DNA of 27,485 nucleotides, from positions 1 through 27,485 of IMG/VR virus record IMGVR_UViG_3300046533_000883, one strand, 5' to 3'. The stretch is from a virus. Under the pieces are notes generated by a model that was given only the letters and a program-made list of their open reading frames with translations, was not told the DNA's origin and did no database searches. Numbering within the stretch: position 1 is the first letter of the stretch; the number at the start of each line of letters is the position of its first letter. Of the stretch, positions 1-27,485 are shown piece after piece. A program made the translations under genes and the position numbers.

Positions 1-2
1 CC

Positions 3-305
3 AAGATCCTCTTGTCGAGCGGCAACACCAACACCCCGGCGGCCTTCTTCTCCACGACCACGATGTCGGCCAACACCACGGGCAACGTCGTGCCGGTCGG
101 CATCTGGCTGATCCCGTCGACCGCCAATGTGGTGCTGCAAGCCAACAACGGCACGTCGATGGTCAATGTCGGCGTGAGCGGCGCGGGCGGCTTCATCCTC
201 TCCGACGGCATCAACGTGCAATTGCTGGCCTCGGCCAACGTCGCGGCGGTGACGCTGATCGGCATCGACGGCGGCATCCCGATCACCAACACGTTCATCA
301 CGTGA
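3..305 (+). CDS. Small virion protein, 5'-truncated by the window edge
   Basis: An open frame enters from the left edge (first full codon at base 3) and ends with TGA at 303-305; an internal TTG at 12 could start it but has no ribosome binding site, so I treat the gene as incomplete at its N-terminus. The visible ~100 residues are rich in Asn, Thr, Val, Ala and Gly, with alternating beta-strand patterning and no Cys. It resembles the 108-residue protein at 4261-4587 in composition and style. Its position just ahead of the adaptor gene, in the structural block, suggests a capsid decoration or other small virion protein. That role is inferred from place and composition; I do not recognise a named family. 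Confidence 0.6.
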   Translation, partial: KILLSSGNTNTPAAFFSTTTMSANTTGNVVPVGIWLIPSTANVVLQANNGTSMVNVGVSGAGGFILSDGINVQLLASANVAAVTLIGIDGGIPITNTFIT

Positions 306-425
306 GCCGTATCCCATCATCCATCTCATGTGGTTGCGGTCCCCGCTGCATCTGTGTGTGGATGAGCAGGTCCCCTTTCTCATCGGAAGGTGGGAAGGGG
401 GACTGAGCTTCAACGATGAGGAATT
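306..425. other. Short intergenic gap in the structural block
   Basis: 120 bp without a gene between the first structural gene and the adaptor gene. It contains an imperfect hairpin (GTCCCC near 370 pairing with GGGGAC near 398) with no T-run, so it is not a classical terminator. The end carries the ribosome binding site GAGGAA just before the ATG at 426. Confidence 0.5.
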
Positions 426-1271
426 ATGGCGGCCACGCTGCAAGATTACGTGAACGAATGCCGCTTGCTTTTGCATGATGCAAACGCGAACTTTTACACC
501 AATCCCGAACTGATCTCGCAGATCAACGCCGCCCGCGAGCGGGTGGTGCGCGACACCGGCTGTCTCCGCACGCTGCAAGTCACCCAGGTTCCGGCCCCGC
601 CGCCGCCGGGCGGCCTCAACCCGGTGCCGTGGCAAGCGAGCACGCTCGAGAGCCTCAACAGCTACGTCTTCTCCAACATCTTCACTTATCGCGTGACGCA
701 GACCGGCACCTCGGGCACGACCGCGCCGCCTTACCCGGTCGCGACGGCGCAGATCCCGCCATCGACGCCGTTCGCCGACGGCACGGCGATGCTGCAGTTC
801 GTGCAGAACGTCGAGATCCTGCCTTACGCGGTGCTGCCCAATTCGCTCTCGACCATCGACGTGCTCGCCATCAACGTCTACTGGGGCAACAGCCGCATCC
901 CGCTGCGCTACCTGCCGTGGCGCGAGTTCAACGCGCAGCTGCGCTACTGGCAGAACTACATCGGGCGGCCGGTGTGCTTCTCGGTCTACGGCCAGAGCAC
1001 GCTCTACCTCGCGCCCGTGCCCGACCAGATCTACCCGATGGAACTCGACACGGTGATCCTGCCGCAGCCGCTGGTGAGCCTCGCCGACCCGGACGTGATC
1101 AACGACCCGTTCACCACCGCGGTCGGCTACTACGCTTGCCACAAGGCGAAGTTCAAGGAGCAGTCGTTCGGCGAGAGCGACATCTTCATGCAGAAATACA
1201 AGGATCAGATCCAGGCGATCCAGGTCGCCATCATGACCGGCCGCATCCCCAACCCCTACGCGCAGATGTGA
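426..1271 (+). CDS. Head-to-tail adaptor-like structural protein
   Basis: 281 residues, ATG preceded by GAGGAATT. The N-terminus (LQDYVNECRLLLHDANANFY, then ELISQINAARERVVRDTGC) matches the general pattern of phage neck/adaptor proteins, where a short helical segment 'LxxxRxLLhD...ELxxxiNxAReevv' opens the protein. The middle (residues ~50-120) is Pro/Thr-rich and probably inserted. The C-terminal part returns to a helical fold ending in KYKDQIQAIQVA. The gene lies directly before the nozzle gene with a 3-bp gap, the usual order adaptor then nozzle in short-tailed phages. Known: such proteins form a dodecameric ring between portal and nozzle. Inferred: this protein does the same. A DUF6682-type annotation would also fit. 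Confidence 0.6.
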   Translation: MAATLQDYVNECRLLLHDANANFYTNPELISQINAARERVVRDTGCLRTLQVTQVPAPPPPGGLNPVPWQASTLESLNSYVFSNIFTYRVTQTGTSGTTAPPYPVATAQIPPSTPFADGTAMLQFVQNVEILPYAVLPNSLSTIDVLAINVYWGNSRIPLRYLPWREFNAQLRYWQNYIGRPVCFSVYGQSTLYLAPVPDQIYPMELDTVILPQPLVSLADPDVINDPFTTAVGYYACHKAKFKEQSFGESDIFMQKYKDQIQAIQVAIMTGRIPNPYAQM

Positions 1272-1274
1272 GCC

Positions 1275-3251
1275 ATGGCCGTCACCGAGCGGGTCAAGCA
1301 GTATCACATCGTCAAGTCGTTCAAGGGGCTGAACACCAAGGCCAACCGGACGGCGATCGACCAGAACGAGTTCTCCTGGCTCGAGAACGCGATGCCGATC
1401 GGCGACAGCAATCTACGCATCGTGCCGACCGTCTCGGCCTCGGTCGACCTCCTGCGCGCGCCGGTGGCGTGGGACGCGAAGGTCACCAACCTCACCTCCG
1501 ACAATGTCGAGCTCTCCGACTATGTCTTCGCGTTCGAGATCAACGGCGAGCTCCAGGCCTACAACCTGACGCACACGACGCTGATCACCATCGCGCCGGC
1601 CGGGACGTTCAATCCCGCAGGCGCGGAGATCACGCAATGGAAGAACGAGCGCATCATCATCGGCGACCCGACCAAGGGCCTCTTCTCCTGGGACGGCAAC
1701 AACCTCGTCTCGATCGGCTCGGTCGGCTTCATCGGCATCACCGCGCACGGCACCGGCTACACCAGCGCCCCGGCCGTGATCATCGGCGCGCCCGGCGACC
1801 CGCATGGCCAGCAGGCGGTCGGCGAGGCGACCATCTTCGGCAACGGCGTCTCGAGCGTGTTCCTGACCCAGCCCGGCACCGGCTACAGCACCCCGCCCGC
1901 CGTCAGCTTCTCAGGCGGCGGCGGCTCGGGCGCGACCGCCATCGCCAGCCTCATCACCTTCGCGACCGGCACCCTGCAGCTTGTCGTCGCGGCCGGCGGG
2001 GCCGGCTACACCACGACCCCGACGATCACCATCACGGGCGGCGGCGGAACCGGCGCGGCGGCGACCCCGATCGTGTTCGGCAATTCCCTCACCTCGGTGG
2101 TGATGACCAACCCCGGCACCGGCTACACCGATGCCTCGACCGTGGTGGCGACGGTGACCGGCGGCGGCGGGTCGGGTGCGGTGCTGACCCCGGTGCTGAC
2201 CACCGACCCGATCAGCGATGTCGCGACCTTCTCGGGCCGCGTCTGGGTGTCGCAAGGCCGCACCATCACCTTCAGCGCCGCCGGCAGCTACAACGACTTC
2301 ATCTCGGTCTCGGCGGGCAATTTCGTCGCCACCGACACGACCTTGCACGGCAACATCAACGCGCTGCTCGCGGCCAACAACTTCCTCTACTGGTGGGGCG
2401 CGGACTCGATCAACGTCTTCTCGGACGTGCAGGTCAACGGCACCACGGGCGCGACCGTCTTCACCAACACCAACATCTCGGCCTCGATCGGCACCGAGCT
2501 GGTGCACGCGATCTTCCCGTATTTCCGGTCGATCCTGTTCATGAACCGCTACGGCGTCTACGCGCTGGTCGGCTCGACCACGACCAAGTTGTCGGACGCG
2601 CTCGACGGCATCTTCACGCTGATCGACTTCACCAAGCCGGTCACGGGCGGGCAGGTGCTGATCTACAACATCCTCTGCGCCGCGTTCAATTTCTACTACA
2701 TGGACCCGGTGCGGGGGACGATCCCGCTGCAGGCCGTGTTCTTCGACAAGAAGTGGTTCCTGACCAACCAGGGCGCGATCGACCTGACCACCAGCATCCC
2801 GTTTCACGGCCTGATCCATCTCTACGGCACGGGCGGCACCAACCTCGTCAACCTCTATACCGACCCCTTGAGCGCGATCTTCTCGCGCACGCAGATGGCG
2901 CTCAGTCATATCGGCGATCCGGTCAGGGACAAGCAGGCGCTGAAGTTCGGCATCGAGGTGACCTCGGCCATCGGCGTGGCGCTCGAGGCGACCATCGATT
3001 CGGAGATCCGGCAGAGCCCGCTCTATCCGTTCAACACGGTGATCAACTGGGTCAACAACAACGGCCAGGTGATCGGCTGGACCAACAATGTCGGCACCAC
3101 GCTCTACTGGCTGGGCGGCTACGGCTACCAGCTGCTCAAGACCGACGCGCAGCAACTGGGCAAGTATCTGGGGCTGACGATCACCTCGAACGCGGCGCAG
3201 TTCACCCTCAACACCGTCGAGTACGAGCTCGAATATGGAGCGCGTTTTTAG
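1275..3251 (+). CDS. Tail nozzle / tail tubular protein B-like (P22 gp10, T7 gp12 type)
   Basis: 658 residues. The opening segment (FKGLNTKANRTAIDQNEFSW followed by LENAMPIGDSNLRIVPT) is the hallmark 'GLNT...ai.d.efs.leN......lr.rpG' start of phage nozzle / DNA-stabilisation proteins that close the tail end of the particle. Residues ~159-305 carry four tandem copies of a ~41-residue unit beginning G-T/A-G-Y-T/S at 159, 201, 242 and 281, each followed by a V-x-I/F strand and three by a GGGG-S/T-GA turn. This is an inserted beta-rich repeat domain. The remainder is beta-propeller-like. The gene follows the adaptor with a 3-bp gap and is followed without gap by the fibre gene, which fits a neck-nozzle-fibre series. 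The family role is known; assignment of this member rests on motif and order. Confidence 0.7.
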   Translation: MAVTERVKQYHIVKSFKGLNTKANRTAIDQNEFSWLENAMPIGDSNLRIVPTVSASVDLLRAPVAWDAKVTNLTSDNVELSDYVFAFEINGELQAYNLTHTTLITIAPAGTFNPAGAEITQWKNERIIIGDPTKGLFSWDGNNLVSIGSVGFIGITAHGTGYTSAPAVIIGAPGDPHGQQAVGEATIFGNGVSSVFLTQPGTGYSTPPAVSFSGGGGSGATAIASLITFATGTLQLVVAAGGAGYTTTPTITITGGGGTGAAATPIVFGNSLTSVVMTNPGTGYTDASTVVATVTGGGGSGAVLTPVLTTDPISDVATFSGRVWVSQGRTITFSAAGSYNDFISVSAGNFVATDTTLHGNINALLAANNFLYWWGADSINVFSDVQVNGTTGATVFTNTNISASIGTELVHAIFPYFRSILFMNRYGVYALVGSTTTKLSDALDGIFTLIDFTKPVTGGQVLIYNILCAAFNFYYMDPVRGTIPLQAVFFDKKWFLTNQGAIDLTTSIPFHGLIHLYGTGGTNLVNLYTDPLSAIFSRTQMALSHIGDPVRDKQALKFGIEVTSAIGVALEATIDSEIRQSPLYPFNTVINWVNNNGQVIGWTNNVGTTLYWLGGYGYQLLKTDAQQLGKYLGLTITSNAAQFTLNTVEYELEYGARF

Positions 3252-4241
3252 ATGCCGACGCTACCGATCACGGTCCCGAACGTCTTCGCCAACGCGACCA
3301 GCAACATCGCCTTGTCCTTGCTGGATGCGGATTTCCTCGCGGTCTCGCAGGCGATCAACGGCATCGGCAACGGCAGCACGCCGCTGACCAACGTCACAAT
3401 CACGGGCGGCACGCTCACCAACACGACGCTCAACAGCCCCGCGATCAGCGGCGGGTCGATGACCGGCACCAACCTGTCGAACGTCACGATCACGGGCGCT
3501 GCTACGCTGTCGCAGCACGGCCAGTGCCGCCTCATCTACAGCAACGCCAACCAGATCATCCTGCATCCCTATAACGGGCAGGCGATCCAGATCGCGGGCA
3601 TGATCTACGCCATTCCGCCGAACGGCGTGAGCCTCACCAACGCCGGGATGATTGCGAACACGCTCTATTACATCTACGCCTTCGTCAGCGGCGGGGCACT
3701 CGCTCTGGAGTTTTCCACTAACGGGCATGTCGCCTCCCTGGACCCCGGCAATTACGGCGTCGAAGTCAAACAGACCGATGGGACGCACTCGCTGGTTGGC
3801 ATGATCAGAACGACCGGCGCTAGTGGATTCTCCGACACCGATACGTTTCGCGGCGTGGCCTCCTGGTTCAACCGCCGCAATGTTTCGACCTATCTCAACG
3901 GCCCTGTCAACGGCTTCTCGACCTCGAACGCCTGGATAGATTTCAGTCTCGGCACCACCACCTCCATGCTCTGGGGCGATGAGGCGCTCTATGCCTTCAC
4001 GTCGGTGTACGCAGTATCGAGCGCCACCGCCGAAAATCTGGCAATAAGACTCACGTTTAACGGCAACCCGGCGGGGCAACAAGGCGCAGCGTACCTGCCC
4101 ATCGGTGGAGCCGGCACGGCGGTCGATACCTATAACTTCATGCCTGGAGAAGCCCCTATCACCGTGGGTGTGCAAGGCCTCACGCCCGGCACAGATCCAA
4201 AGAATTGTGTTGTCACCCTCACCACAATAACGCGGCAATGA
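3252..4241 (+). CDS. Putative tail fibre / receptor-binding protein
   Basis: 329 residues starting immediately after the nozzle stop codon. Residues ~40-85 contain strand-turn repeats (NVTITGGTLTNTT, NSPAISGGSMTGTNLSNVTI) of the type that form a triple beta-helix or collar in trimeric fibres. Then comes a beta-rich domain with aromatic patches (MIYAIPPNGVSL, LYYIYAFVSGG). The C-terminal half (from base ~3650) looks less GC-rich and less biased in codon use than its neighbours, as often seen in exchanged receptor-binding tips. I infer an adsorption role from position and repeat pattern; no enzymatic motif is visible. Confidence 0.6.
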   Translation: MPTLPITVPNVFANATSNIALSLLDADFLAVSQAINGIGNGSTPLTNVTITGGTLTNTTLNSPAISGGSMTGTNLSNVTITGAATLSQHGQCRLIYSNANQIILHPYNGQAIQIAGMIYAIPPNGVSLTNAGMIANTLYYIYAFVSGGALALEFSTNGHVASLDPGNYGVEVKQTDGTHSLVGMIRTTGASGFSDTDTFRGVASWFNRRNVSTYLNGPVNGFSTSNAWIDFSLGTTTSMLWGDEALYAFTSVYAVSSATAENLAIRLTFNGNPAGQQGAAYLPIGGAGTAVDTYNFMPGEAPITVGVQGLTPGTDPKNCVVTLTTITRQ

Positions 4242-4260
4242 CGCGGAAGGACGCCACGAC

Positions 4261-4587
4261 ATGAGCAGCAACGCCTTCAGCCCCACCGGCAACACGGTGG
4301 TCTTCACCGCCAACGTCGCCGCACCCACCGCGGTGCAGGTGCCTGGCGCAGGCGGCGGGCAGTACCGCGTCGTCAACGCAGGCACGTCGGATGTCTATAT
4401 AGGCAGCGGGTTGACCGCAGCAGCGGCCAATTCGAGCGCGGTGATCATCGGCACCAGCAACGCCACGACCTTCCTGATCTTGGGGCGCACGGTCGAGGTG
4501 TTGAGCCTCGCGCCGAACCTGTTCTTCACCGGGATCACGGCGGCGGGCGGCTCGTCGGTGCTGATCACGCCCGGCGATGGGAGCTGA
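4261..4587 (+). CDS. Small beta-rich virion protein
   Basis: 108 residues; ATG preceded by GGAAGG at good spacing. Pattern of short Val/Ile/Thr strands with Asn/Gly turns (for example VVFTANVAAPTAVQVPG and YRVVNAGTSDVYIGSG) and no Cys. The segment 'QYRVVNAGTSDVYIGSG...' is typical of small proteins beside tail fibre genes in many phages. Similar in composition to the truncated protein at the left edge of the window. Probably a virion component; exact role unknown. Confidence 0.55.
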   Translation: MSSNAFSPTGNTVVFTANVAAPTAVQVPGAGGGQYRVVNAGTSDVYIGSGLTAAAANSSAVIIGTSNATTFLILGRTVEVLSLAPNLFFTGITAAGGSSVLITPGDGS

Positions 4588-4589
4588 CC

Positions 4590-5069
4590 ATGACCTTGCG
4601 CGCCGTCAGCGACACCGGCACCAGAGGGCAATATCCCGGCACGACCACCAACGACAACGCCTTGCCGGGCATGATCGGTGAGTATCTGCTCTCCGACATC
4701 CCGAAAGTGTCATCGGTCGGGCTGACGAACAACGTCACCGCCAATATCGCAACGATCGCGCTCACGGCCGGCGATTGGGATGTATGGATCAATGGGGCGT
4801 TGATGGGCGTCACCGCCACCGCTCTCGGCAATGCAAATTTTTACATTTCGTCAACCTCGCTCGGTGGCAACAACACGAACGGAGCCGTCGCGCGCCTCGC
4901 ATACAACCCCGCCACCGCGCCCTTCGCCAGCGGTGACTTGACGCTGGACATTGGCCCGTGGCGTGTGAGCTTGGCCGCTCCCGCAACCTATTATTTCACC
5001 GCCTTGTGCGGCTTTGCCAGCGGCGCATTGAGCGCTTATGGCTGCATCCAGGCGCGGCGGGCACGCTGA
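4590..5069 (+). CDS. Tail-associated beta-sandwich protein
   Basis: 159 residues with ribosome binding site GGGAG before the ATG. The stretch LTNNVTANIATIALTAGDWD is a recurrent motif of phage tail fibre and tail tip proteins (strand-turn followed by 'LtaGdWdv'). It is followed by a hydrophobic Gly-rich core and a short basic tail (ARRAR). Its stop codon overlaps the next start (5069). Most likely a fibre accessory or receptor-binding protein. This is inference from the motif and the neighbourhood. Confidence 0.55.
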   Translation: MTLRAVSDTGTRGQYPGTTTNDNALPGMIGEYLLSDIPKVSSVGLTNNVTANIATIALTAGDWDVWINGALMGVTATALGNANFYISSTSLGGNNTNGAVARLAYNPATAPFASGDLTLDIGPWRVSLAAPATYYFTALCGFASGALSAYGCIQARRAR

Positions 5070-5413
5070 TGGACATGAGCGCGCTGTCATCGGCCGAGTT
5101 CGGCAACGTCGAGTCGCTCAACGCGATGCTGTTCGAGAACGGCATGCAGCATCAGCTCTTCCGCGACACCGTGTTCCGCCTGGGCCAGAGCGTGCCTGCC
5201 TATCCGCTGATGGAGGCCGATGTCGACAACCTCGACGACTGGCTGATCGCGCATCAGGACGAGCATCAGGCTTATGCGTCGCTCCTGGGCCTCAACAACC
5301 CGTTCAATCTGCTCGATGTCGACTGGAACGACCAGGATCAGTTCTACGATTGGATTTCGTCGCATTTGTTCATCCACGAGACGATTGCGAGCGCCTTGGG
5401 GGTCGTCGGATGA
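5069..5413 (+). CDS. Small acidic protein of the tail block, unknown function
   Basis: 114 residues starting at the ATG that overlaps the previous stop (ATGGACATGAGC; a second ATG two codons later is an alternative start). Strongly acidic and hydrophilic with clustered Asp/Glu/His and aromatic residues (NLDDWLIAHQDEHQAYASLL, VDWNDQDQFYDWISSH); predicted all-helical. Ends by overlapping the next gene in ATGA fashion, so it is translated in series. I do not recognise a family. Confidence 0.65.
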   Translation: MDMSALSSAEFGNVESLNAMLFENGMQHQLFRDTVFRLGQSVPAYPLMEADVDNLDDWLIAHQDEHQAYASLLGLNNPFNLLDVDWNDQDQFYDWISSHLFIHETIASALGVVG

Positions 5414-5892
5414 GCCCTCCAAACCCGCCCCCGCAAGGCCCGCAGCAGCAGGATCTGTCACAGAACCCGCAAGCGGTTCAGCAATTCAACGAGACCGCGG
5501 AGATCCTCTGGGGCAGCGCGCAGAAAGAGGGCTTGCCGCCGGGCATGACGCGCGATCGATATCTCGGCGCGGTCGCGCAGAAGCTCAAGCAAGGAACGCG
5601 GCTGGCACAAATTGGCAAGACCGTGTTTTTATTGACGCCAATAGAGCCGCTCGTGCTGGAGTTGCACACCTCGACATTGGAGGACGGCAAGGCGCTGGTG
5701 CAGCGCTATGTGGTTGCAGCAAAGACGGCCAAGCAGCAGGGCATCAAGAAGATCATCAGTTACGCGGATAGTCCTGCGTTTGTGAAACTTGCGAAGGCGA
5801 CCGGATTGCCCGTGAAGATCACGCAAGAGCCGCACATGGACGAGATCACCGGGCAAATGAAGCCGATGTACAAGTTCGAGCTGGACCTCTGA
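5410..5892 (+). CDS. Internal-virion-associated protein resembling T7 gp13 / GNAT fold
   Basis: 160 residues; ATGA overlap with the previous stop and GGGGGT upstream. Residues 1-25 are a Pro/Gln-rich tail. From ~60 a compact alpha/beta domain follows the order of GNAT-like phage proteins: strand (TVFLLTPIEPLVLELHTS), helix (KALVQRYVVAAKTAKQQG), strand (IKKIISYAD), then 'SPAFVKLAKATGLPVK', which parallels the T7 gp13 pattern 'N-s-x-h-i-r-f-l-k-t-i-G-a'. It stands just before the large internal-virion genes, as gp13 stands before gp14-16 in T7. The relationship is inferred from memory of that pattern and needs a profile search. Confidence 0.5.
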   Translation: MSPPNPPPQGPQQQDLSQNPQAVQQFNETAEILWGSAQKEGLPPGMTRDRYLGAVAQKLKQGTRLAQIGKTVFLLTPIEPLVLELHTSTLEDGKALVQRYVVAAKTAKQQGIKKIISYADSPAFVKLAKATGLPVKITQEPHMDEITGQMKPMYKFELDL

Positions 5893-20337: not shown

Positions 20338-20393
20338 GGCCGCTGCCGGGGGACTGACAGGCCCCCCTACCAGCCTCGGCGGCGGCCTTTTTT
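20338..20393 (+). terminator. Intrinsic terminator after the PDQGLPG gene
   Basis: Outer stem GGCCGCTGCCG (20338-20348) with CGGCGGCGGCC (20377-20387), one G-U pair, an inner G-rich/C-rich hairpin, then six T at 20388-20393. It isolates the next gene from upstream transcription. Confidence 0.75.
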
Positions 20394-20412
20394 GAGAGAG
20401 AGAGGAACGCCT

Positions 20413-21150
20413 ATGAAAAACCTGGCACTTGCCGCGCTTGCCCTCGCCGGGGCCGGCCTCGCCGCCACCCCGGCCCACGCCGTCCTGCAATTCAGCGCCA
20501 ATATCGGCGGCACCACTTTCAGCTGCGTCGATAACGCCGCCTGCGACACCAACCCGCTCGTCGGCACCATCACCACGGGGACGCAGACATTCGGCGCGGT
20601 CACCTTCCTGGGATCGGCCCAGACCCAGACCACGGGGGCGAGCAACACCCTTGACACGACCTCATTCCAGATCACCAATTCCGGGACTGCCGCCGTCGCG
20701 GTGACCATCGCCGTCGGCGGCACCAGCTTCACCGGGCCCGTGACCAGCTTGTCCGAATCAGGCTCAGGCACCTGGCAGAACGCCGCCGGCTCGACCATCG
20801 ACCTGACCTACTATGCCGACAACGCCAACACCCAGGGGGCGGGCACCCCGACGGATCATCCCGGCATCCTGCAAGCCGACAGCGGCCTCCTCACCGCCGC
20901 CGGCCTCACCGACAGCTTCAACTTCAACCACGTCTCGGGCTTCATCGACCCGGATCTCTATTCGATGACCCTCGAGACCACCGGGACGATCGCGGGCGCG
21001 GTCGGTGGCGTGGCCTCCCAGCTTACGGGCCGCTCGCAAGCGATCGTCGCGACGGCGGTGCCCGAGCCCGGCACCTTGGGCCTTCTCGGCGCAGGCCTGA
21101 TCGGCCTCGGCCTCGTCGCCTGGCGTAAGCAGGGTCATGGCATGACCTAA
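20413..21150 (+). CDS. Exported PEP-CTERM sorting-signal protein
   Basis: 245 residues from ATG 20413 (GAGAGGA upstream); an in-frame ATG at 20392 would only add seven residues before the signal peptide. Residues 1-23 are a Sec signal peptide ending AHA. The mature part is Thr/Gly/Ser/Asn-rich and beta-like with one Cys pair (SCVDNAAC). The C-terminus has the PEP-CTERM triad: VPEP at 216-219, a hydrophobic helix (LGLLGAGLIGLGLVAW) and a basic end (RKQ). PEP-CTERM proteins are cut by exosortase and usually placed on the cell surface or in exopolysaccharide; a host exosortase would be needed. The gene is bounded by terminators on both sides, like a moron. A PEP-CTERM protein is unusual phage cargo. 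Confidence 0.85.
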   Translation: MKNLALAALALAGAGLAATPAHAVLQFSANIGGTTFSCVDNAACDTNPLVGTITTGTQTFGAVTFLGSAQTQTTGASNTLDTTSFQITNSGTAAVAVTIAVGGTSFTGPVTSLSESGSGTWQNAAGSTIDLTYYADNANTQGAGTPTDHPGILQADSGLLTAAGLTDSFNFNHVSGFIDPDLYSMTLETTGTIAGAVGGVASQLTGRSQAIVATAVPEPGTLGLLGAGLIGLGLVAWRKQGHGMT

Positions 21151-23122: not shown

Positions 23123-23593
23123 TTAAGTCTCGAGCAACTCGAACATGCGACCCTGCGGCGGATCGGTCATCCCTTCCAACTCGGGCCGCAGGGCCAGGGC
23201 GACGATGCGCCCGCGCCGGTCGCGCATGATGTCATAGACCCGGTGCCGCGTGTCGGTGCCGTCCGTCGCCGCCATGACCACGGCCTCGACCCGGTCGGGC
23301 CGGTCGGCGATGCGGCCATGCACTGCGGCGGAATCGCCCCTCTCGACATAGGCGATCCACGCCTCCGAGATGTGGACATAAGCGATGATCTGCCGCTTCT
23401 GAAACTCCTCCTTCAGCGCCTTCAAGGCCGCCGTCTTCTCGTCCGGCGAGGCCCACGGGGTGCCCATGACATGGATGGTCCCTTCCGCATCGCAGGCAAA
23501 GAAGATCGGGGTCAGCGCCTTCGGCCTCTCGCGCTCGATCAGGTGATGCAGCGCCATGGTCGCATCGGCGACCAGCTCATCAAGCAGGCTCAT
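23123..23593 (-). CDS. 156-residue protein, unknown function
   Basis: ATG at 23593 with GGAGG nine bases upstream, overlapping the upstream gene by 14 bp. A helical start (LLDELVADATMALHHLIERE) leads into an alpha/beta domain: strand IFFACDAEGTIHVMGTPW, helix KTAALKALKEEFQKRQ, strands IIAYVHISEAWIAYV and VEAVVMAATDG, then RHRVYDIMRDRRGRIVALAL. This looks like a conserved family of hypothetical proteins in phages and alphaproteobacterial genomes, with no active-site motif I can identify. It lies between two helix-turn-helix genes and the methyltransferase genes in one operon. Confidence 0.7.
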   Translation of the reverse strand: MSLLDELVADATMALHHLIERERPKALTPIFFACDAEGTIHVMGTPWASPDEKTAALKALKEEFQKRQIIAYVHISEAWIAYVERGDSAAVHGRIADRPDRVEAVVMAATDGTDTRHRVYDIMRDRRGRIVALALRPELEGMTDPPQGRMFELLET

Positions 23594-23885
23594 CGTCGCC
23601 GCCCTCCTCGACATAGTCCGGATCGTCCTCGTCCAAGGGTTCCGCCGCATCCATCAGCGCCGGCAGCAACTCCTCGAGCTCGGCCACGCGCGCCCGGGCC
23701 AGCGCCGCCAGCTTGGCGTAGATCCCCGGCGGCGGGGCCTGCTTGCCCGAGGCCCAGCGCTGCACGGTGCGGAGGTTCACCCCGAGATCCTCGGCCAGGG
23801 GCATCTGCCACACCCGGCCGTAAACGAGGGTCACGAAGGCATGGAGCAGCGGATTGGGTTGTTGCCAAGGTTGCTCTTCGCTCAT
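23580..23885 (-). CDS. Helix-turn-helix DNA-binding protein
   Basis: 101 residues, ATG overlapping the previous stop. Residues ~22-60 form a helix-turn-helix: VYGRVWQMPLAEDLGVNLRT then VQRWASGKQAPPPGIYAKLA, a typical 'LA..lGv..rTvqRW.sG...pp' recognition pattern of phage and bacterial Cro-like or transposon regulators. The C-terminal 30 residues are very acidic (EPLDEDDPDYVEEGGDD), perhaps a protein interaction or DNA-mimic tail. Likely a transcription regulator acting on early operons; its operator is unknown. Confidence 0.75.
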   Translation of the reverse strand: MSEEQPWQQPNPLLHAFVTLVYGRVWQMPLAEDLGVNLRTVQRWASGKQAPPPGIYAKLAALARARVAELEELLPALMDAAEPLDEDDPDYVEEGGDDEPA

Positions 23886-24355
23886 GATCCGGCATCATCC
23901 TTGCCCGCTTGCCACAGCGCCGCCAGCACAAAGGGCAGGTAGCGCCGCCGCTCCTCGTCCAGCCCCGCCACCATCCACGGGTGATCCTCGATCCATTGCA
24001 GCGCCGCGCCCCAGGCTGTCGCGGGGATGCCCGCCGCGGGGATCACAGGGGCCGCTGCCCCTCCCCCTCCGGGGGCCCCAGATCCTCTCGAGCCCGTTGG
24101 AACGATCGGCGGCACCAGGGTCGCCGCCGGCACGCCCAGCGCCGCCGCCAGCCTGATGAGATTGGCCGGATCGGGATAGCTCGTGCCGCGCAAATAATGC
24201 CCGATGCGATCGCGATTGCGCGCCACCGCATAGCCCCGCTTGTCCTGCACCGTGCCCCACACCCGCCGCGCCAGCTGCGAGGCATTGAGCCCTTCCCGCG
24301 CCATCGCCGCCTTGAGCGCCGCCGCGAACTCGGGATGCTTCCCCGCCCCGCTCAT
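23882..24355 (-). CDS. XRE-family (Cro/CI-like) repressor
   Basis: 157 residues from ATG 24355 (ATGA overlap with the preceding gene). The N-terminal domain reads EFAAALKAAMAREGLNASQLARRVWG, then an 11-residue insertion, then RNRDRIGHYLRGTSYPDPANLIRLAAALGV, the XRE pattern in which the recognition helix is followed by 'YLRG..yP....L..lA.aLgV'. After a Pro/Gly linker the C-terminal part is helical with aromatic residues (ALQWIEDHPWMVAGLDEERR) and no LexA-like protease residues are visible. Probably a repressor or early regulator. The best candidate sites are the palindromes at 16270, 17669 and 27304, but no link can be shown. Confidence 0.75.
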   Translation of the reverse strand: MSGAGKHPEFAAALKAAMAREGLNASQLARRVWGTVQDKRGYAVARNRDRIGHYLRGTSYPDPANLIRLAAALGVPAATLVPPIVPTGSRGSGAPGGGGAAAPVIPAAGIPATAWGAALQWIEDHPWMVAGLDEERRRYLPFVLAALWQAGKDDAGS

Positions 24356-24471
24356 CGCAAAAACCAGTGCAGGAGCCAGCCGAGGATGACGGGGCCGCCG
24401 ATCGCCGCCCCCAGGACCCACTTGAAATCGGCCATGAAGACGCCGACCAGGGCAAGGTTCATCGGGTCCAT
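24352..24471 (-). CDS. 39-residue single-helix membrane protein
   Basis: ATG at 24471, one base after the stop of the upstream gene; internal ATGs at 24462 and 24435 are alternatives. The protein is mainly a hydrophobic helix (FKWVLGAAIGGPVILGWLLH) with a WFLR end. It overlaps the repressor start by 4 bp, which supports translation. Function unknown. Confidence 0.5.
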   Translation of the reverse strand: MDPMNLALVGVFMADFKWVLGAAIGGPVILGWLLHWFLR

Positions 24472-26420: not shown

Positions 26421-26627
26421 CGTCAATCCACTCTCGTATCCCGTCCATCCCGTCGGCATCCCGATCGCCTCCAGTGTCGCCGTGAAATGAATGATCGCCT
26501 TGTACCCCATGCGCCCGATGTCATCGGCCAGCGCTACCGCCTCCGCACTCGACAGCACCGGCAAACACTTGCGCCACTTCGCACTCTCCGTGCCGCCCGT
26601 GCGATAAACTACCGTGAATGTCTCCAT
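26412..26627 (-). CDS. 71-residue early protein, unknown function
   Basis: ATG at 26627 with AAGGGA upstream. Small alpha/beta pattern: strand METFTVVYRTGGTESAKWRK, helix LSSAEAVALADDIGRMGYKA, strand IIHFTATLEAIGMP, ending TGWTGYESGLTHG. The start and the 'ALADdI.RMGYKAiIh' helix-strand unit look like small phage proteins of hypothetical annotation. Its stop lies inside the far end of leader element B. No catalytic motif. Confidence 0.65.
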   Translation of the reverse strand: METFTVVYRTGGTESAKWRKCLPVLSSAEAVALADDIGRMGYKAIIHFTATLEAIGMPTGWTGYESGLTHG

Positions 26628-26640
26628 GATCCCTTCCCCC

Positions 26641-26871
26641 CTAGTCCTGCAGCAGCGCCATGTTGCGCGCGTCAAACGCCTTGGCCGTCGCCGCGTCGCG
26701 CCACGCGCCACAACCGTTCTCGCCGTCCAACATCTCACGCGCCGTCGCCGCGCACTTGCCGCGCTTCGCCGCTACCGCATGCGTGCTCGTCGGATACGCA
26801 TAAGCCGTCCGACCCGTCGCCGTGTCGCCGCATACAAACCCGCCGTCGTCCAAAATCTTCATGATGATCAT
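26641..26871 (-). CDS. 76-residue early protein, first gene of the right leftward operon
   Basis: ATG at 26871 with GGAG seven bases upstream, just downstream of the TTGACG-N17-TACAGT promoter. Mixed alpha/beta sequence (MIIMKILDDGGFVCGDTATG; RTAYAYPTSTHAVAAKRGKC) ending in an amphipathic helix (WRDAATAKAFDARNMALLQD). Two Cys, no clear metal site. No family recognised; position suggests one of the earliest expressed proteins. Confidence 0.65.
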   Translation of the reverse strand: MIIMKILDDGGFVCGDTATGRTAYAYPTSTHAVAAKRGKCAATAREMLDGENGCGAWRDAATAKAFDARNMALLQD

Positions 26872-26953
26872 CGGTCTTCTCCGCTACCAGGCACCCGGCT
26901 TGATTGCCGCGTCCACGGCCCTCGGGCAAAACCGCCCGAGAACCAATGATCAG

Positions 26954-26982
26954 ACTGTACCGTGTGCAATCGTGGGCGTCAA
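26954..26982 (-). promoter_or_regulatory. Early leftward promoter
   Basis: On the minus strand TTGACG (26982-26977), exactly 17 bp, then TACAGT (26959-26954). It precedes the small early genes ending at 25046. The same -35 box and spacing occur in the promoter at 25006-25034. Confidence 0.65.
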
Positions 26983-27301
26983 ATCTTTTCTTCGCACGAT
27001 GCAAATTATTTTCGCTGCCACGCTGTCTATATAGCGCTGCCGGAAACCCCGCATTTTCTGGTGGCGGGGGAACCGTGGGGTGCACGCGCACCTGCGCTCG
27101 CGGTCCCAATGCCGCAGCCAGCGCCCCGTGCCAGGCAATCGTTGCTCGAGGCCGACCGTCGGCCGGCGGCGACAACTGCCGCCGTGGAGTTGTTGGCAGC
27201 TGCTATCCGCCCAGCGGCCCCACTGGCCCTCGATCGTTGACCAGCTCCTACAATGCTGCGGTGGATCTGTTGCTGCCGGCCGATCGTAGGCATGGGTACC
27301 A

Positions 27302-27339
27302 CTATAGGAGAAACCTATCGTGCTATAGGCAAAACCTAT
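27302..27339. promoter_or_regulatory. Two phased operator-like palindromes
   Basis: ATAGG-AGAAA-CCTAT (27304-27318) and ATAGG-CAAAA-CCTAT (27325-27339), each 15 bp with 5-bp half-sites, 21 bp apart, i.e. two helical turns on the same face. Together they form a direct repeat of the 17-bp unit CTATAGG-N2-AAACCTAT. This arrangement fits cooperative binding of a repressor or initiator. Confidence 0.6.
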
Positions 27340-27381
27340 TTCTTAACCTTTCGAGAACAAGATACACTTAGACCGTATCTG

Positions 27382-27415
27382 ATTAGGTACCCTCTGGTAT
27401 CCTCATTAGGTACCC
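27382..27415. repeat. GGTACC box array in the loop of the inverted repeat
   Basis: ATTAGGTACCC at 27382-27392 and again at 27405-27415 (23 bp apart), with a related GGTATCC at 27396-27402 between them. A further GGTACC closes the left arm (27295-27300). The last copy runs into the right arm of the inverted repeat. Confidence 0.5.
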
Positions 27416-27485
27416 ATGCCTACGATCGGCCGGCAGCAACAGATCCACCGCAGCATTGTAGGAGCTGGTCAACGATCGAGGGCCA

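Follow-up and report, generated by a model that had tools for sequence, protein, structure and literature searches.

Which role, if any, is played by a phased pair of small palindromes at the very end of a phage contig? The window, i.e. the whole stretch of DNA analyzed here, is an entire but incomplete IMG/VR virus record of 27,485 bases. Its right end comprises an AT-rich stretch that harbors several short repeats and is framed by the arms of a perfect inverted repeat. The elements of this end are:

27224..27300, + strand: left arm of a perfect 77-nt inverted repeat (arms 100% identical)
27301..27408, no strand: AT-rich stretch forming the fold-back loop (108 nt, GC 38.9% versus 65.5% for the window)
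27304..27318, no strand: palindrome 1, ATAGG-AGAAA-CCTAT (ATAGGAGAAACCTAT), exact match
27325..27339, no strand: palindrome 2, ATAGG-CAAAA-CCTAT (ATAGGCAAAACCTAT), exact match, centre 21 bp from that of palindrome 1
27360..27380, no strand: third small inverted repeat of the loop, AGATAC-N9-GTATCT, seen in the sequence and as a hairpin in predicted folds
27379..27392, + strand: direct repeat CTGATTAGGTACCC, second copy at 27402-27415 (93% identity, 23 bp apart)
27409..27485, - strand: right arm of the perfect 77-nt inverted repeat, ending at the record's last base; possible fold-back or assembly end

An earlier note on this DNA described two 15-bp palindromes with identical half-sites, 21 bp apart and embedded in an AT-rich loop. 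Both statements hold: the palindromes match exactly at 27304-27318 and 27325-27339, the loop is as AT-rich as claimed, and the 108-bp step with the lowest GC content in the window begins at 27298, within a few bases of the loop start. A search for the 15-mer beyond the pair, also proposed there, revealed no further exact copy of ATAGG-N5-CCTAT in the window, an incomplete genome; both copies lie at 27304-27339. If up to two mismatches are tolerated, four matches are obtained (two exact, two with two mismatches) versus a shuffle mean of 3.37. The 17-mers at 27302-27318 and 27323-27339 are 88% identical. None of 5,000 dinucleotide shuffles of the loop yielded, within 60 bp, two inverted repeats of any sequence that agree in 5-nt half-site and spacer length (3-8), and among 20,000 loop shuffles a single exact ATAGG-N5-CCTAT appeared in nine and a double one in none. 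Shuffles of the whole window, in contrast, contained at least one such pair of any sequence in 28/200 cases (mean 0.155; 0.16 in 100 further shuffles). For this reason, the pair is clearly non-random for its AT-rich stretch, yet, as a single pattern picked post hoc from 27 kb, only mildly surprising. Searches for Rfam matches above the gathering score and for tRNAs found neither.

The exact pair at 21-bp spacing has no match in the viral collection. It is present in four bacterial genome contigs (L200-L203), for which no connection to the window was seen: in L201 and L202 the two sites are reverse complements of each other and so form a long hairpin, in L203 the pair lies inside an open frame and in L200 between frames. 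Nothing plainly about an operator with this half-site was found in the literature, which does not exclude prior publication.

Where on the phage map this end belongs can be deduced from overlapping contigs. The proteins of the window place it in a tailed-phage group that includes numerous environmental contigs as well as MW202753 (54%) and MW202825 (52% identity), as judged over a 658-aa tail protein, a relative of which is encoded in at least 561 of the 599 viral-collection stretches among the matches listed. The window codes for ERF and YqaJ recombination domains and yields two methyltransferase matches. Its leftward gene block opens, in our reading, with the following frame:

26641..26871, - strand: first open frame of the leftward gene block, 76 aa, without family match

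Contig L005 is identical to positions 1-5538 of the window (100%) and adds 7,778 bases upstream, and L122, which stems from another sample and is about 96% identical to L005, extends the map by a further 4,302 bases. A 592-aa frame of L122 (2095-3873) is read by us as terL, by its place and sequence. L005 and contigs L121-L125 extend the map on the terL side without reaching the right end of the window; L122 and L125 stop short of it. The window thus misses at least the terL side, and the assembly breaks off at its right end. The same end was searched for in relatives by protein, by a 24-mer of the arm, and by distant blastn against phages and plasmids, with nothing useful retrieved; the protein search gave a single 32% match on a 153-kb contig and blastn a single match inside an HTH gene. 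Records very near the window were possibly left out of these scans for relatives.

Several further observations concern the same map. The window frame at 20392-21150 (+ strand) ends in a PEP-CTERM sorting motif (PF07589, 30.2 bits) and may hint at an exosortase host. Frames that in our reading resemble a pyruvate-dehydrogenase E1 subunit and a radical SAM protein are located near structural genes (L005 2-370 and 1361-2731, L122 4304-4669), and a relative of the E1-like protein is encoded in 103/108 matched viral-collection stretches. Close to the contig start of a close relative, on the terL side, ATTACT occurs three times at an 11-bp period (L125 60-87).

The position of the AT-rich stretch, in contrast to its palindromes, recurs in the family. 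When the three 108-bp stretches richest in AT were taken from each of 14 relatives, in 13 of them one of the three sat 1.1-2.8 kb upstream of terL, a range that was chosen after seeing the data and measured from approximate terL ends. This stretch ranks first in nine relatives, second in three, and third in one, the exception being G007. The relatives were treated as circular (G017, G018, and MW202753 were counted across their ends) and are partly non-independent, since G010 and G014 share 91% identity over 149 nt in this stretch. Because of this shared placement, the AT-rich loop is probably real phage DNA and a candidate for the control region of the family, a reading based on positional evidence. 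In L122, the 2,094 bases upstream of the terL frame contain no such stretch (lowest GC 0.50), which leaves room just beyond, where the window may end. As a more general clue, the shared AT-rich stretch marks where to look for transcription control or a replication start in this group.

None of the 14 long relatives contains the palindrome pair itself; two of them (G012, G013) carry pairs of other half-sites. The single palindrome, at no more than one mismatch, occurs at one to three places in each of 11/22 related records, which is taken as chance. Long inverted repeats were considered as a family feature and rejected: among 16 relatives (518,205 bases), a score of at least 15 is reached only in G013, where it is due to low complexity, and in G015. 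For inverted repeats at the AT-rich stretch of 13 relatives, shuffles were as good in 0/60 cases for G015, 1/60 for G013, and 4/60 each for G009 and MW202825; nine of the 13 show none at a score of 10.

An indication of a function comes from other viral contigs. Scanning for two copies of the palindrome separated by 0-25 bp gave 27 pairs on 22 viral contigs. Ten of these pairs overlap a promoter-like match (9 or more of 12 positions), while random placement within the same loci would give 2.68. The other 17/27 pairs lack such an overlap, some lying within open frames, so that the palindrome alone does not mark an operator. On five contigs (L205, L206, L212, L223, and L225), all eight tandem pairs (8/8) overlap a sigma-70-like match, versus 0.29 expected in the same loci, with the sites spaced by 24-25 bp. 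Each of these contigs encodes a small Cro-like protein with an HTH_3 match above the cut-off. Its gene starts at a pair on three of them (L205, L206, L212); on the other two, L223 and L225, the start is close to an additional single site. The frames in opposite orientation likewise score above the HTH_3 cut-off in L205, L206, and L225 and are without family match in L212 and L223. This layout suggests that the pairs of the five contigs are operators. Three of the five contigs have two pairs about 0.8-1.1 kb apart and are apparently of the immunity-switch type. Threefold occurrences of the palindrome were seen in L208 (14376-14466, 38 and 38 bp apart) and L221 (3790-3866, 30 and 32 bp apart).

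Given the sites, their phasing, their AT-rich position, and the same palindrome over promoter-like sequence near Cro-like genes elsewhere, we infer, at roughly even chances, that the window pair constitutes a tandem operator-like site for a putative regulator in a divergent control region. Each of the two 15-bp sites is spaced as expected for a symmetric HTH dimer, and at a distance of two helical turns two dimers would come to lie on the same face of the DNA. The sites would be located in the AT-rich control region of a tailed phage, with early genes running leftward on one side and the terL block rightward on the other; its divergent nature is presumed, as only other contigs show the terL side. 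Binding, if it takes place, would regulate transcription out of this region.

As in Cro/CI-type operators, two symmetric sites of one sequence stand in tandem in the window. Sites that overlap or flank a promoter, a further trait of such operators, were not found: a scan with a sigma-70-like consensus, covering the side within the contig, gave no match over the window pair. One match is present upstream of the leftward genes:

26954..26982, - strand: sigma-70-like promoter match TTGACG-17-TACAGT, 9 of 12 matches

It is the sole match in 26600-27485, versus 0.3 in shuffles, and lies about 320 bp from the pair. The earlier note had called the arrangement typical of repressor or replication initiator sites. 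The first half of this statement gains fair support as an operator class, given the 8/8 promoter overlap and the Cro-like genes on the five contigs; for the second half, the window offers no direct evidence. If the sites are bound, the pair offers a way into the control region of an uncultured but widespread group of phages.

The same note had nominated two encoded regulators as candidate binders:

23580..23885, - strand: XRE/Cro-like HTH protein, 101 aa (HTH_3 18.4 bits, below the cut-off of 23; phrog_12690, E 9.3e-13)
23882..24355, - strand: HTH protein, 157 aa from an inner ATG (HTH_3 23.4 bits, cut-off 23, on the 179-aa frame 23882-24421)

These are the only two HTH_3 matches of the window, and both genes are situated within the leftward gene block, about 3 kb from the pair. 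HTH specificity is set by the recognition segment. The 101-aa protein aligns with the Cro set and shows NLRTVQRW at this position versus SQPTVSEW or alike in the latter; neither candidate contains a SQPTVSEW-like segment. Among 231 frames beside such sites at 13 loci, the sole match was the Cro-like protein of L206, to the 101-aa protein only (E 1e-4) and of a general HTH kind, and tblastn of both proteins against L200-L225 gave nothing better than E 0.54. The 157-aa protein is 54% identical to a Microcystis phage repressor over 76 aa, and the region upstream of that repressor contains no such palindrome. Two copies of ACCTA, 11 bp apart, are found there (L086 1369-1385) and weakly resemble the window half-site. 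No relative turned up when genomes were scanned for the HTH protein. The nomination is thus not supported, considering the weak HTH_3 scores, the distance, the differing recognition segment, and the tblastn result. The binder may be a host protein or come from a gene that lies past the contig end.

Two real alternatives stand beside the operator reading, which is the most likely of the three. It is possible, if rather unlikely, that the AT-rich stretch is a replication origin in which the palindromes serve as iterons or initiator sites next to DNA that melts. The relatives share an AT-rich stretch upstream of terL, and one of them, G015, looks like an origin in several respects: all four (4/4) of its DnaA-box matches (TTATNCACA; L113 3666-3871) fall within 205 bp upstream of the start of the stretch, and a 19-nt inverted repeat, matched by 0/60 shuffles, flanks it. 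Irrespective of the window, this DnaA-box cluster beside an AT-rich stretch is a candidate phage origin. Repeated 7-mers exceed the shuffles in G013, G015, and G018 (0, 2, and 1 of 200 as high). The window loop, however, shows no excess of repeated 7-mers (3 versus 1.4; 41/200 shuffles as high). The DnaA-box scan found no initiator boxes beside its AT-rich stretch, where boxes of other initiators may still be present: the single TTATNCACA match of the window is not within 1,500 bp of the stretch, and 8/13 relatives likewise lack TTATNCACA within this distance. No initiator protein was recognized among the frames scanned.

The second alternative, also doubtful, regards the pair as a functionless local tandem duplication of a 21-bp unit. 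According to our reading, 15/21 positions agree between 27300-27320 and 27321-27341; moreover, pairs of this general kind arise in 28/200 shuffled windows, and the pair is not conserved in the 14 relatives. Against this, all six differences fall into the spacer or outside the half-sites, and 10/10 half-site positions are kept in both copies. Such a distribution fits selection on the half-sites, an argument that is partly circular because the pair was noticed by matching half-sites.

The earlier note was silent on the 77-nt, 100% identical inverted repeat that closes the loop. GGTACC is present at both arm edges. The predicted single-strand fold, a 77-bp stem with small loop hairpins, has a z of -24 that is driven by the arms, versus -1.8 for the loop region folded alone. 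Ends folding back by at least 18 nt are rare: 2/398 ends of 199 loci do so, both being copies of this window end, as opposed to 0 of the other 394 ends (197 loci), many of which are cut points and some of which belong to overlapping loci. The arms probably result from an end effect, be it of assembly or of an amplification fold-back, and would not belong to the operator; an arm that ends at the contig end and GGTACC at the edges are compatible with this origin. The length of 77 may, as we suppose, be the word length of the assembler. Exact direct end repeats of the assembler-word kind, 99 and 127 nt long, occur in 2/15 whole relative records, but the overlap between L122 and L006, neighboring contigs from the same sample, is 147 nt long and contains one mismatch.

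Were the fold-back real, the AT-rich control and origin element of the family would in this lineage have become a large inverted-repeat element with arms of at least 77 bp and the phased sites in its loop, where cruciform extrusion and one protein could switch replication and the divergent operons together; this is very unlikely. Highly improbable, too, is a real structural end in the form of a closed linear terminus or long hairpin, with both palindromes among several small hairpins of its loop. The perfect 77-bp stem of the predicted fold, the stop of the contig exactly where the arm ends, and the rarity of fold-back at other ends would fit such a terminus. Yet the loop is non-palindromic, unlike that of a protelomerase end, and a telomere-resolvase domain (PF16684) was found in 0/20 records, with a positive control that matched only 1/14 and an incomplete genome. 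Furthermore, the break points differ among the relatives, MW202753 and MW202825 were deposited as circular, the direct end repeats of two of the 15 whole records point elsewhere, and only 2/16 relatives (G013, G015) reach an inverted-repeat score of 15 or more. GGTACC at both arm edges is also what an inverted amplification chimera could leave. Motifs at contig ends inside exact inverted repeats hence call for read-level checks. A role of the sites as promoters for a single-subunit RNA polymerase of the T7 type can practically be dismissed: the 12-mer CACTATAGGAGA, which we take to resemble this promoter class, is exact at 27300-27311, but it is the sole match at up to two mismatches with 0.49 expected by chance, and RNA_pol was found in 0/20 records, a result that is not decisive as the positive control matched nowhere.

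N15-like phages possess hairpin telomeres, with which the window end shares an inverted repeat at the contig end; it differs from them in the 108-nt non-palindromic loop and in that no telomere resolvase was found. Another parallel to the arms is found among chimeras formed by multiple displacement amplification. A study of amplified DNA describes inverted chimeras with short complementary junctions, 406/475 being inverted (Lasken and Stockwell 2007, PMC1855051). In these descriptions, as at the window end, the second segment is inverted, the intervening stretch is left out of the inverted copy, and the junction is a short complementary sequence, here GGTACC. In contrast to them, the chimera would here be the dominant path at a contig end.

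With iteron and DnaA-box origins, the locus has in common an AT-rich stretch with short repeats, and the relative G015 shows clustered DnaA-box matches there; the window differs by the lack of a DnaA-box near the stretch, the lack of a recognized initiator gene, and a copy number of only two. A tyrosine-integrase domain was not found in 20 records, most of them incomplete. Unlike in a Cro/CI-type (lambdoid-like) switch, no Cro-like gene lies beside the window sites on the contig side of the pair. From the presumed Cro/CI-type pairs of L205, L206, L212, L223, and L225, the window pair deviates by its spacing (21 versus 24-25 bp) and the lack of an overlapping promoter-like match, whereas it has in common with them the half-sites, the spacer length, the tandem arrangement, the variable spacer sequence, and the location on phage DNA.
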